Assembly: GCF_000092845.1 (NCBI RefSeq)
Contig: NC_014150.1
Span: forward strand, 2,913,510-2,977,509
From: Brachyspira murdochii DSM 12563
Lineage (GTDB): Bacteria; Spirochaetota; Brachyspiria; Brachyspirales; Brachyspiraceae
Direction: 5' to 3'
Length of the DNA stretch: 64,000 nucleotides
This document shows, in pieces, positions 3,420-6,344 of the stretch. The stretch's first letter is position 1. Each line of letters starts with the position of its first letter. A program made the position numbers and the translations under genes. The notes below the pieces were generated by a model. The model did not search any database and was not told the DNA's origin. It worked only from the letters and a program-made list of their open reading frames with translations.

Positions 3420-5405
3420 TTAAAAATTGTACCCAAATTCAAATTCCCAAGTAAAAGGCTTTGCTATAGAATATGCTGAAAGAATAGGAGTTTTATTAAA
3501 AATATTTTTGAAGTTCATAGAAAATATTAAATGCTCAAACCATATGGAGTAGAATGATATATTAAAGTCATGAAAAACTTCTGAATAATATATAGGTCTG
3601 TATTCTGATAAAGGTCTTGGGGCAGAGTATGTATAATAAATATTTAATGACAATGAAGTTAATACTTTATGATTTGGTATAAAGTCATATCCAAGCAATG
3701 CTGTAACTACATGTTCTGGCAAACCTATTTTAGGAAGTTTATTTTTTCCCATATAAGCAAGCTGATAAGAGTAACTTAACTTTGTTTTTATCTTATGATA
3801 TTTAGCAAAAGGTATATTATACTCAATTCTTGGTGTAACTATATGCGAAACTGCTATGTCTACATTTTCTGGAACAGTTGAATACCAAACTATTTTATTT
3901 GTGTATGTTGTATATGTATATGAGGCTTCTATTTTTAAATTTGTTATTGGTTCTAATGTTAGTTTAGTATATATTTGATTGTATTCTTCAGGTTTTAAAT
4001 ATGGGTTTCCAAAGTTGTTATAAAATAAATCATTGAATGTAGGTACAGAGTAGTCATGAGAGTATGAAAAATATAAACTGTATCCTCTGTAGAAGTTTAG
4101 ATTTGCTGCAATATTGTATGCCAAGTAATTATTATTTCTGCTTATATCAAAATCTTCATGCTGAAATTCATATTTTATACTTGGAAGAAATGAGAATATA
4201 GGTGTATTGTTATCCCAATATCCGAAAGATAATTGAGGCTCATATAATAATGAAATGGAATGTCTTTGAGGTGTAAAATTAAAATTTTGTTCTATAGTAT
4301 TAGTGTCTTCAATTAAAAAGTCATATCTATATTCTGGAGTTAGTTTATTGTAGAATGTTATAATATTTGGAATAAGCTCATCCATTCTTGATATGGAAGT
4401 ATTTAATGCTATTGCATGCGACTTATAGTCCGATATAGGTTTTCCATTTTGATAATAAGGTCTGTCAACAAAAGAATCAAAAACATAAGATAAGTTTATA
4501 TTATAATCAAGTATATCAGAAAATCCATTGTATGAAATAGAAGATGTTAATGTTGTAAACTTAAACCATGAATCTGTTGTGTTTATAGGAGGAAGCTGAT
4601 ATTTTGAGACTGCATCCGAATATGATATATTAACAAAAGCTCTTATGTAGTTTTTATTTTCAAAATTATATCTGTAGTCAAGAGATGAGTTTACTATAAG
4701 CTGTTTATTATCATTAATATATCCTATTATAGGTTTTTGAGAGCTATTTAAAAAATCATAATAATAATTGCCGTCAGTGTAATATGAGTCGGCGGTAAAA
4801 GTAATAATATGCTTATTGTCAAAGTTTTTAGAAAAAAGTATTGAAGGCGTTATAGTATTGTATGCTCCGTAGCCCAAAGATACTAATACAATATCTTCCA
4901 AAGGGGTTTTTGTGGTAATATAAATACTGTTTCCTATAATCTCAATTTTTTCTATTAGATTGGCAGGTATTCTCCTTAAATCTACCCCAGCGTCAGCATT
5001 TCCTTTTGCCGTATTCATAAGAACGCCGTTAATATATATTTTCATGTTGTCGGCATTTCCGCCAGCAGGTTCAACTGTTTCATTTCCCATATAAGAGCCT
5101 TTATTGACAAAACCTGACTGATTGGCAAGTACCTCCTGAGCATTTTTATAGCCTCTTCTTTCAATTTCTTCGGAAGTTATTACATTGTTATTAATCTTTA
5201 TAGGAGTTTTAGGGATTTTTATAGGGTTTGCAGTGTTGTTTGTATTATTTGTCTGAGCTGCATTAGTAATTTCAACCTGCGAAGTAACCCAGATACCGCC
5301 TTTAAGTTCTCTTATTAGATAAGTTTGAGCATTTATATTTTGATAATAAAAAAATATAGATATTATAATAAATAATGCTTTTGAAAGAATATTTAGTTTT
5401 TTCAT
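3420..5405 (-). CDS. TonB-dependent outer-membrane receptor, probably for cobalamin
   Basis: A 661-residue TonB-dependent receptor. It has a signal peptide (residues 1-26), a plug domain (about 65-165; ITSEEIERRGYKNAQEVLANQ, then IYINGVLMN and RRIPANLIEKIEIIG), and a beta-barrel rich in aromatic and Asn residues ending in a terminal Phe (EFEFGYNF). The gene lies 63 bp downstream of a lipoprotein that follows a cobalamin riboswitch, so the most economical reading is a BtuB-like importer of B12 or a precursor. Length is close to BtuB (about 600) but longer, with a Thr/Asn-rich linker before the plug. Substrate is inferred from the riboswitch, not from the protein. Energy-coupling genes (TonB/ExbBD) and BtuFCD are not in the window. 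Confidence 0.8.
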   Translation of the reverse strand: MKKLNILSKALFIIISIFFYYQNINAQTYLIRELKGGIWVTSQVEITNAAQTNNTNNTANPIKIPKTPIKINNNVITSEEIERRGYKNAQEVLANQSGFVNKGSYMGNETVEPAGGNADNMKIYINGVLMNTAKGNADAGVDLRRIPANLIEKIEIIGNSIYITTKTPLEDIVLVSLGYGAYNTITPSILFSKNFDNKHIITFTADSYYTDGNYYYDFLNSSQKPIIGYINDNKQLIVNSSLDYRYNFENKNYIRAFVNISYSDAVSKYQLPPINTTDSWFKFTTLTSSISYNGFSDILDYNINLSYVFDSFVDRPYYQNGKPISDYKSHAIALNTSISRMDELIPNIITFYNKLTPEYRYDFLIEDTNTIEQNFNFTPQRHSISLLYEPQLSFGYWDNNTPIFSFLPSIKYEFQHEDFDISRNNNYLAYNIAANLNFYRGYSLYFSYSHDYSVPTFNDLFYNNFGNPYLKPEEYNQIYTKLTLEPITNLKIEASYTYTTYTNKIVWYSTVPENVDIAVSHIVTPRIEYNIPFAKYHKIKTKLSYSYQLAYMGKNKLPKIGLPEHVVTALLGYDFIPNHKVLTSLSLNIYYTYSAPRPLSEYRPIYYSEVFHDFNISFYSIWFEHLIFSMNFKNIFNKTPILSAYSIAKPFTWEFEFGYNF

Positions 5406-5468: not shown

Positions 5469-6032
5469 TTAATTTAATTTAATATACCCATAAGTTGCAC
5501 TTGGAGTTGTATACCATTCAGTGCTAGCATCAGGAAAAGTGTTTTCATCGTCACTTAAAGTACCTTTTGCATTGACGCATATTTCAGCACCTTCTTCATT
5601 AAGATATATAATAAACCACTTATAACCAGTGTAGGCAGTAGAACTATAATATAGCCCTCCTATATAATTTTTTCCATTGTTCACTACATTTGTAGCATAT
5701 TTGAATTTTGTTTTAATAGTTTCTTGACCATCATCATAATAATTACAATTTTCATCTGTTCTGCCATTTATAGTAGAATATAGATTGTCTTTATATATGA
5801 TTTGATTTGCTAAGTTTTCTTTCCAACTATTTTCAAAATAATCTTTTTTTGTCTGGTCAGTCCAAGGTTTTGATAACATTTCTTCCGATGCTATGAAAGT
5901 ATATGTTCTTTCTCCATCTGAACCGCCATTATTTATATTATTGTTTGGGTTGTTTGGATTGTTTTTAGCACATGATACGGCTAATATTAACACTGTTATG
6001 AGTGTTAATAGAATTTTGATTTGTTTTTGCAT
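5469..6032 (-). CDS. Riboswitch-controlled lipoprotein of unknown function
   Basis: A 187-residue protein with a lipoprotein signal peptide (residues 1-21, lipobox LAVSC with the lipidated Cys at 21), an Asn/Pro/Gly-rich flexible linker (to about residue 40), and a compact C-terminal domain rich in Tyr, Trp and Thr. I do not recognise the domain. It is the first gene after a cobalamin riboswitch and is followed by a TonB receptor, so it probably belongs to B12 capture. Surface B12-binding lipoproteins (BtuG/BtuH) partner BtuB in Bacteroides, but no similarity to those is visible by eye. The ribosome-binding site AAAGGAG lies inside a hairpin (6040-6081), consistent with translational control. 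Confidence 0.75.
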   Translation of the reverse strand: MQKQIKILLTLITVLILAVSCAKNNPNNPNNNINNGGSDGERTYTFIASEEMLSKPWTDQTKKDYFENSWKENLANQIIYKDNLYSTINGRTDENCNYYDDGQETIKTKFKYATNVVNNGKNYIGGLYYSSTAYTGYKWFIIYLNEEGAEICVNAKGTLSDDENTFPDASTEWYTTPSATYGYIKLN

Positions 6033-6039
6033 AAAAATG

Positions 6040-6081
6040 CTCCTTTATTTTTATTAAATTAAAAGCTTTTCAATAAAGGAG
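6040..6081 (-). promoter_or_regulatory. RBS-sequestering hairpin of the cobalamin leader
   Basis: On the minus strand the arm CTCCTTTATT (6081-6072) is perfectly complementary to AATAAAGGAG (6049-6040). The second arm contains the Shine-Dalgarno of the lipoprotein gene, whose ATG is at 6032-6030. The 22-nt loop contains a small self-complementary AAAAGCTTTT. No T-run follows the hairpin, so translational sequestration is more likely than transcription termination as the riboswitch output. Confidence 0.65.
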
Positions 6082-6185
6082 TGCATAAAATAATAATTTT
6101 TAGATATTAAAATGCTAAATATAAAATTGTGAACGTATATTTTTAATGAACAATTTTTATTAGCAATAATAAAAAAATAATAATT

Positions 6186-6309
6186 TTTCAGTGCACTCGC
6201 CTGTTTAAATGGTAAATCCGACTTCGTTAATTCTTTTATTAAAATAAAAAAAATTAAACTTTACGGTTGCGTGCCAGCGTGGGATTTTCACCCTCATTCC
6301 CATAGAATA
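6186..6309 (-). ncRNA. Cobalamin (B12) riboswitch aptamer
   Basis: Read on the minus strand, the leader contains the conserved core of the cobalamin riboswitch. It has a GGG-TGAAAAT-CCC stem-loop (about 6293-6281), followed by the CGCTGGC strand, the near-invariant GCAACCGTAA (about 6270-6261), and the later AAGTCGGA segment (about 6225-6218). The AT-rich stretch between them is an optional variable helix. A promoter lies just upstream at 6316-6344, placing transcription start near 6309. The downstream genes are a lipoprotein and a TonB receptor, the typical regulon of this riboswitch in outer-membrane bacteria. Boundaries are approximate; the pseudoknot partner was not traced with certainty. 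Confidence 0.82.
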
Positions 6310-6315
6310 CAATAT

Positions 6316-6344
6316 ATTATATATGTTTGTTTTTTTTATATCAA
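6316..6344 (-). promoter_or_regulatory. Promoter of the cobalamin riboswitch transcript
   Basis: On the minus strand TTGATA (6344-6339) and TATAAT (6321-6316) are separated by 17 nt, a near-consensus housekeeping promoter. Predicted transcription start is about 6309, immediately before the conserved riboswitch core. Confidence 0.7.

Follow-up and report, generated by a model that had tools for sequence, protein, structure and literature searches.

A Brachyspira cobalamin-riboswitch locus encoding a BtuB-like receptor and candidate B12-catching lipoproteins

Introduction

The closest described systems to the locus reported here are the BtuB-BtuG/BtuH/BtuJ/BtuK loci of Bacteroides, in which, according to passages of two papers, a riboswitch, a TonB receptor and small lipoproteins occur together, with several unrelated capture families per locus; in the same passages, surface B12-capture lipoproteins are documented mainly in Bacteroides so far (PMC10404256; PMC12751083). 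Spirochaetota are named among the phyla of the DUF4465 family in part of a further paper (PMC13398666). For Brachyspira, the relevant portions of two papers hold a species list (PMC8123684) and general remarks on TonB and lipoproteins (PMC3532143), and our literature search, whose coverage excluded most subscription journals, found no report of a cobalamin riboswitch, or of a B12 lipoprotein, in Brachyspira.

The window analyzed here is a stretch of 64,000 nucleotides from the genome of Brachyspira murdochii DSM 12563, a single contig of 3.24 Mb. An earlier note, made from its letters alone, had proposed that a cobalamin riboswitch governs a lipoprotein and a TonB receptor, and that the lipoprotein captures B12 in a spirochaete but belongs to a family other than BtuG/BtuH. 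The spirochaete setting is right, all relatives with a name being Brachyspira. Like the Bacteroides loci, it combines a riboswitch, a TonB receptor and small lipoproteins; unlike them, its lipoproteins lack sequence matches to the known capture proteins, have a predicted small barrel and stand in tandem cassette arrays, and DUF4465 (BtuJ, PF14717) was found in none of the 26 genus genomes.

Organization of the Locus

On the minus strand, a promoter candidate is followed by the aptamer, a linker, a switching strand, a Shine-Dalgarno sequence, the lipoprotein gene and the TonB receptor gene (Table 1). The receptor gene begins 64 bases downstream of the lipoprotein gene, and a glycosyltransferase gene lies 171 bases past the receptor on the same strand. 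The promoter sequence read by the earlier note is present and ranks first among 12 candidates between 5380 and 6500; since shuffled versions of this interval yield 8.5 +/- 2.9 candidates, it is plausible rather than proven. Similar hexamers precede the aptamers of relatives, as judged by eye. On the upstream side the promoter is adjoined by a gene for a PD-(D/E)XK transposase-family protein (PF12784; 6493-7446, minus strand), and a 321-aa relative occupies the equivalent place in G008.

Table 1. Features of the locus, in window coordinates.
Feature	Position	Strand	Basis
Sigma-70-type promoter candidate, TTGATA-17-TATAAT	6316..6344	-	11/12 consensus positions
Cobalamin (AdoCbl-II-like) aptamer core, P3-P6 and start of B12 box AAGTCGGA	6217..6302	-	R1 model, structure of 36 relatives, sub-threshold Rfam match 6295-6195
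Aptamer 3' part: ACC, P13-like stem, loop with GAGTGCA (6198-6192)	6188..6216	-	Read from sequence
AT-rich palindromic insertion of ~75 bases between aptamer and anti-Shine-Dalgarno	6102..6176	-	Similar stretches in other Brachyspira loci
Switching strand TGCACTCCTTTATT	6072..6085	-	Partner GAGTGCA (aptamer side) or AATAAAGGAG (Shine-Dalgarno side)
Shine-Dalgarno AATAAAGGAG of lipoprotein gene	6040..6049	-	Sequence
187-aa lipoprotein: signal peptide, lipobox LAVSC, Asn/Pro-rich tether, type-A mature domain without known family	5469..6032	-	ORF, profile searches
661-aa TonB-dependent receptor, BtuB-like	3420..5405	-	PF07715 and PF00593; NCBIfam

A Genus-Specific Model of the Aptamer

At gathering thresholds, Rfam reported three tRNAs and no cobalamin aptamer in the 64-kb window. 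RF00174 had no match over the whole host genome, and in a permissive search of 501 bases it scored the window aptamer at 15.7 bits (E 0.086), below its gathering cut-off of 31.5. Because these results, taken alone, would have spoken against an aptamer, we built a model specific to the genus. The motif GGTGAAAATCCCNNNCTGGCNCGCAACCGTAA, at up to three mismatches, occurs in 24 of the 26 genus genomes; the reversed motif, used as a control, was not found in any. Of its 38 occurrences, 36 entered the alignment for model R1; the window and one identical copy were held out, and four copies found later (G005, G014, G015 and G023) are not part of it. R1 scored the window aptamer at 94 bits (E 1.4e-22; 6302-6217) and gave no second match over the full 64 kb.

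The B12 box is common to the 36 aligned sequences, as is a conserved P3-P6 core that shows covariation. In a structure of 16 pairs (P3, P4, P5 and P6), 97.9% of cells are paired, and 8 of the 16 pairs are altered on both sides, in 30 cells altogether. None of 500 shuffles equaled any of these measures, and sliding the partner by 1-3 columns lowered pairing to 31-56%. P5 and P3 are invariant and so lend no covariation support. The 3' part of the aptamer lies outside R1, which covers the core, and occurs in variant forms in all 38 compared copies. An L5-L13 kissing pair (GCAC/GTGC) is possible in most copies; six carry GGCCC in L5, which breaks the pairing, and the copies as a set do not support the loop consistently.

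Across the genus, R1 recovered 42 aptamers, 31 of which stand at the receptor/lipoprotein locus; every one of the 26 genomes except G019 has at least one copy. Among 247 genomes sampled from the phylum, 104 contained a match, with those beyond the genus at 28-51 bits. Of 20 loci from relatives, 5 reached or exceeded the gathering score of RF01689 (AdoCbl-II); L032, L049 and L050, all situated before lipoproteins and receptor, scored 39-41 bits against a cut-off of 36.5. The Brachyspira form thus has the core helices, the GGTG..TCC and GC..GC elements and the B12 box of AdoCbl-II and cobalamin riboswitches (RF01689, RF00174), together with linkage to a BtuB-like receptor and metE, but it is AT-rich and many copies, including that of the window, fall under the Rfam cut-off. 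The low Rfam score of the window copy reflects the limits of detection and not the biology of the aptamer. A covariance-model scan recovers the cobalamin aptamer called by the earlier note with the held-out genus model, while Rfam's own model stays below gathering; covariation and the RF01689 matches in orthologous loci support the call.

Conservation of the Locus Across the Genus

An aptamer and a receptor lie within one stretch at 23 loci, G005 being left out since its locus is split between contigs. A cobalamin aptamer stands in front at all 23, and six loci have two. At 22 of them, between one and six short lipoproteins come after the aptamer and ahead of a single TonB receptor, with one lipoprotein in five loci, two in five, three in seven, four in two, five in two and six in one (a frame beginning shortly before the motif is included in the count for G009). 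The gap ahead of the receptor is 7-323 bases. At the remaining locus, in G003, the aptamer is followed by the receptor and then by BtuF/C/D-type genes, and a lipoprotein is absent, which argues that the lipoprotein is accessory rather than essential. Genes of the BtuF/BtuC/BtuD type lie directly behind the receptor in both G001 and G003, the Pfam calls having been made on the G001 proteins and the G003 genes being their homologues by clustering.

Several other neighbors were seen. In G013 and G021 the gene immediately after the receptor (L078:7991-9427 and L085:4709-6145) encodes EutA (PF06277), the reactivase of ethanolamine ammonia-lyase, and an iron alcohol dehydrogenase follows the receptor in nine loci. 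In G001 a second aptamer directly precedes metE (L062:1342-3783), the sole such copy found in the genus.

The Lipoproteins and Their Possible Role

The window lipoprotein has the signal peptide and lipobox cysteine of bacterial lipoproteins and matches neither a Pfam nor a PHROG family, in keeping with its earlier description as a lipoprotein with no recognizable domain. Fifty of the 67 clustered members were aligned and have in common an invariant S20 and C21, and W70. Their Pfam matches are weak and scattered (the best, E 0.0022, is to a family of unknown function), and no lipocalin family is among the 21 Pfam families listed for them. The two main types, A (that of the window) and B, align over the first 34 columns only, at 74% identity; their sequences point to one export head and tether joined to different mature parts. 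In the phylum, profile A3 matched 24 of 247 genomes, all of them Brachyspira, and 221 others had no match. By eye, all 44 matches at E up to 1.3e-15 fall in the receptor locus, and the weaker matches cover mostly the N-terminal head.

No known B12-capture protein gave a sequence match to the lipoprotein, and neither BtuG nor BtuH was among the seven PDB sequences found at E up to 1. For the type A protein, AlphaFold2 gave a model of mediocre quality (pLDDT 69.5), whose closest fold match was weak (Z 4.9, the lipocalin-like staphostatin; next, Tp0751 at 4.7). A second model was therefore made for type B (pLDDT 83.2). Its top Foldseek matches were bacterial lipocalin-like proteins (E 0.006-0.04), and VIA-align placed it closest to Treponema Tp0751 (Z 8.5, rmsd 3.1, 104 residues), with FABPs and lipocalins at Z 6-7. 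Since Z values under 8 may reflect a common arrangement only, we say that the better-modelled type looks calycin-like and do not call it a calycin; identities to calycin and lipocalin-type proteins are about 4-13%, a Pfam lipocalin match is lacking, and the window type reaches only the Z of 4.9 given above. Moreover, as the mature parts of the two types do not align, the type B fold speaks for the paralogues and not directly for the window protein. BtuG, BtuH and BtuJ are resembled by none of the listed fold matches. Kinship with BtuG/BtuH found no support, there being neither a sequence match nor a listed fold match, although absence from the fold list is not proof. The earlier assignment to a different family stands as far as sequence and the different predicted shape go, with the same proviso on the fold list.

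For the locus as a whole, the best explanation, which we hold to be probable if by no means secure, is a switch turned off by B12, a BtuB-like B12 transporter and a lipoprotein that catches corrinoids. The lipoprotein would be exported, tethered through its Asn/Pro-rich linker at what is presumably the cell surface, and would most likely catch B12 or other corrinoids for the receptor, by analogy with BtuG, BtuH and BtuJ of Bacteroides, although its small beta-barrel-like domain would be unrelated to theirs. We know of no B12 capture by the barrel-like fold class of the Brachyspira lipoproteins, and B12 capture is a candidate role that is consistent with the data.

Alternatively, the lipoproteins may be placed on the receptor or close to it and shield it, or vary the surface, against phages, bacteriocins or antibodies, with the common switch keeping both in step and no binding of B12. 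Arrays in which one to six copies have a common export head but non-aligning mature domains would suit such a role, as would the several decayed or fused copies (L071:2106; L076:1672-2601; L085:8500-8880; L066:3357-3887), which include an ATA in place of the usual start codon, a double-length frame of 309 residues and truncated copies. In eight genome pairs, dN/dS was 0.10-0.56 for matched lipoproteins and 0.05-0.18 for the receptor, so that the lipoproteins are constrained, yet diverge several times faster than the receptor. However, dN/dS is under 1 in every pair, the best-modelled type resembles calycins that bind small ligands, and no phage-family match was found, and we consider a shielding role unlikely, though it is the most serious of the alternatives. 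Less likely again is that the lipoproteins bind another ligand, such as a corrinoid remnant, a lipid or a host molecule, and are merely controlled by B12. The lack of sequence relation to any B12 binder and the existence of G003 without lipoproteins would agree with this, but the lipoproteins are confined to the locus and, the incomplete G023 aside, to genomes with a B12-type receptor. Capture of corrinoids for the receptor is the reading retained below.

The Receptor and the Case for B12 Import

The receptor has both the plug (PF07715, 1.4e-11) and the barrel (PF00593, 1.3e-6) of a TonB-dependent receptor, as the earlier note had recognized. At E 0.1 its only NCBIfam matches are two B12-receptor models, TIGR01779 (8.9e-12) and PRK10641 (1.1e-11); it is termed BtuB-like and not BtuB because its scores are below the equivalog cut-offs (44.3 of 599.7 bits and 44.0 of 836 bits, respectively). 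A PDB sequence search with the receptor and with its 18-member profile returned nothing at E 0.001. It is single-copy in 24 of the 26 genus genomes, with the others at 69-94% identity.

A BtuC homologue is found in 25 of 26 genomes (host copy C1:653235-654233; in G024 a distant homologue only, E 8.6e-29). Twenty-four of the 26 encode PF02965, the domain of B12-dependent methionine synthase. G019 (2.0 Mb, 99% complete) is without aptamer, lipoprotein, receptor, BtuC and PF02965, and among the 21 genomes at least 90% complete it alone lacks each of these. G023, which is 85% complete, lacks the receptor and PF02965, perhaps owing to incompleteness.

Because of the aptamer, the linkage within the locus, the B12-receptor models and the co-loss in G019, a function of the locus in B12 import is well supported. 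The receptor would be the outer-membrane B12 transporter of Brachyspira, partnered by a BtuC-type permease whose gene lies at another place in the genome. The pairing of riboswitch and B12 receptor in the earlier note is upheld by the same co-loss, the held-out model with its covariation, the RF01689 hits and the linkage to metE and BtuFCD-type genes. Import of some other substrate, e.g., a siderophore or heme, might be argued from the two NCBIfam scores, both far below cut-off, and from the BtuF/BtuC/BtuD-type neighbors, which score equally well or better on siderophore and heme models (NCBIfam). We regard it as very unlikely, given that B12-receptor models are the receptor's sole NCBIfam families, that a cobalamin aptamer lies ahead of it at every one of the loci, and that it was lost together with the B12-dependent methionine synthase domain.

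The Leader Switch

In the leader, CTCCTTTATT (6081-6072) can pair at 10/10 positions with AATAAAGGAG (6049-6040), giving a 10-bp helix over the Shine-Dalgarno, and GAGTGCA can pair at 7/7 positions with TGCACTC in the switching strand. For the window alone, a shuffled linker attains 10 bp in 9.5% of trials, and in individual leaders the helix is often not significant. In the 32 leaders whose Shine-Dalgarno is recognizable, the mean length of the longest helix over it is 9.0 bp, compared with 5.5 bp in shuffled linkers. The hairpin said in the earlier note to bury the Shine-Dalgarno can thus form in the window, and most relatives can form the 10-bp helix as well. No Shine-Dalgarno was recognized in six leaders, which all belong to the gene-less kind described below.

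The window's two switching strands are separated by the insertion at 6102-6176, which is missing from the shorter linkers of relatives. Similar stretches occur elsewhere (L095, L090 and L064), and the insertion may be a small mobile repeat, making the switch longer. That the window aptamer is a dead relic, as this repeat-like separation from the anti-Shine-Dalgarno strand and the loss of the aptamer at the host's other copy might suggest, is highly improbable, the core positions and helices being intact, the 94 bits lying within the range of other copies and both switching strands matching perfectly.

A working switch is the preferred reading. In known btuB riboswitches B12 turns expression off, and by analogy a translational cobalamin riboswitch would here shut the B12-import operon when B12 is plentiful. 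With no B12, GAGTGCA would pair with TGCACTC and CTCCTTTATT would be kept off the Shine-Dalgarno, so that lipoprotein and receptor are made; with B12, the presumed ligand, bound, the aptamer would hold its 3' hairpin, and the freed strand would pair with AATAAAGGAG and block translation.

Gene-Less Aptamers

Ten of the 42 aptamers have no nearby gene on the same strand (G005, G007, G008, G009, G014, G015, G022, G023, G024 and G025). Some 180 bases past these gene-less aptamers lies a conserved 25-base element, ACATAAATAAACCAAATATCTAAAA, which is present in 12 of the 26 genomes (L094-L105) and mismatch-free in 11. It is a mostly unpaired stretch, and in 11 of 12 cases the hairpin after it has a predicted energy of -14 to -20 kcal/mol. 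Flanking sequence differs between copies, and the element lies before three different convergent genes, named from a look at their sequences as radical-SAM-like in eight, Sua5-like in three and another in G014. A clear T run follows the hairpin on the same strand in one subfamily only, so in the other the hairpin may be the terminator of the opposite gene. The host genome retains the element intact beside a ruined aptamer (L099:1501-1525; G000:C1:1757614-1757638), and in G006 (L095) the aptamer is ruined and the element has two changes.

EutX and Rli55 are small RNAs with B12 riboswitches, and cases of B12-controlled small RNA are known from Firmicutes. The gene-less units resemble EutX and Rli55 in that an aptamer is fused to a gene-less, hairpin-ended transcript, and differ in that the conserved part is a mostly unpaired 25-base stretch. 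They are candidates for a small RNA under B12 control, a proposal for which we see the balance as roughly even. Searching the 26 genomes for targets at up to three mismatches gave 20 places, namely 12 copies of the element itself and 8 sites within or next to unrelated genes (reversed-pattern control, 28); no target was found. As a short reading frame the element was rejected by eye, the two subfamilies having no start codon in common and one of them an in-frame stop.

Significance

The Rfam models miss AT-rich cobalamin aptamers throughout a genus, and with the gene-less unit, B12-controlled small RNAs would extend beyond the Firmicutes cases. A broader picture, which we offer tentatively and think rather doubtful, is that Brachyspira has a scavenging surface of its own, in which switch-governed, exchangeable lipoprotein cassettes (one export head with at least two unrelated barrel-like mature domains) would capture corrinoids for a BtuB-type receptor, while the same switch would drive a stand-alone small RNA whose invariant 25-base pairing region co-ordinates B12 metabolism in trans. 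The Brachyspira lipoprotein is a candidate for a new kind of B12-catching protein, and the locus, if the proposal is true, would supply a well-defined group of proteins on which binding can be tested simply. Competition for B12 shapes gut communities; a further, unrelated solution to B12 capture in intestinal spirochaetes would, if true, be a case of convergent evolution.
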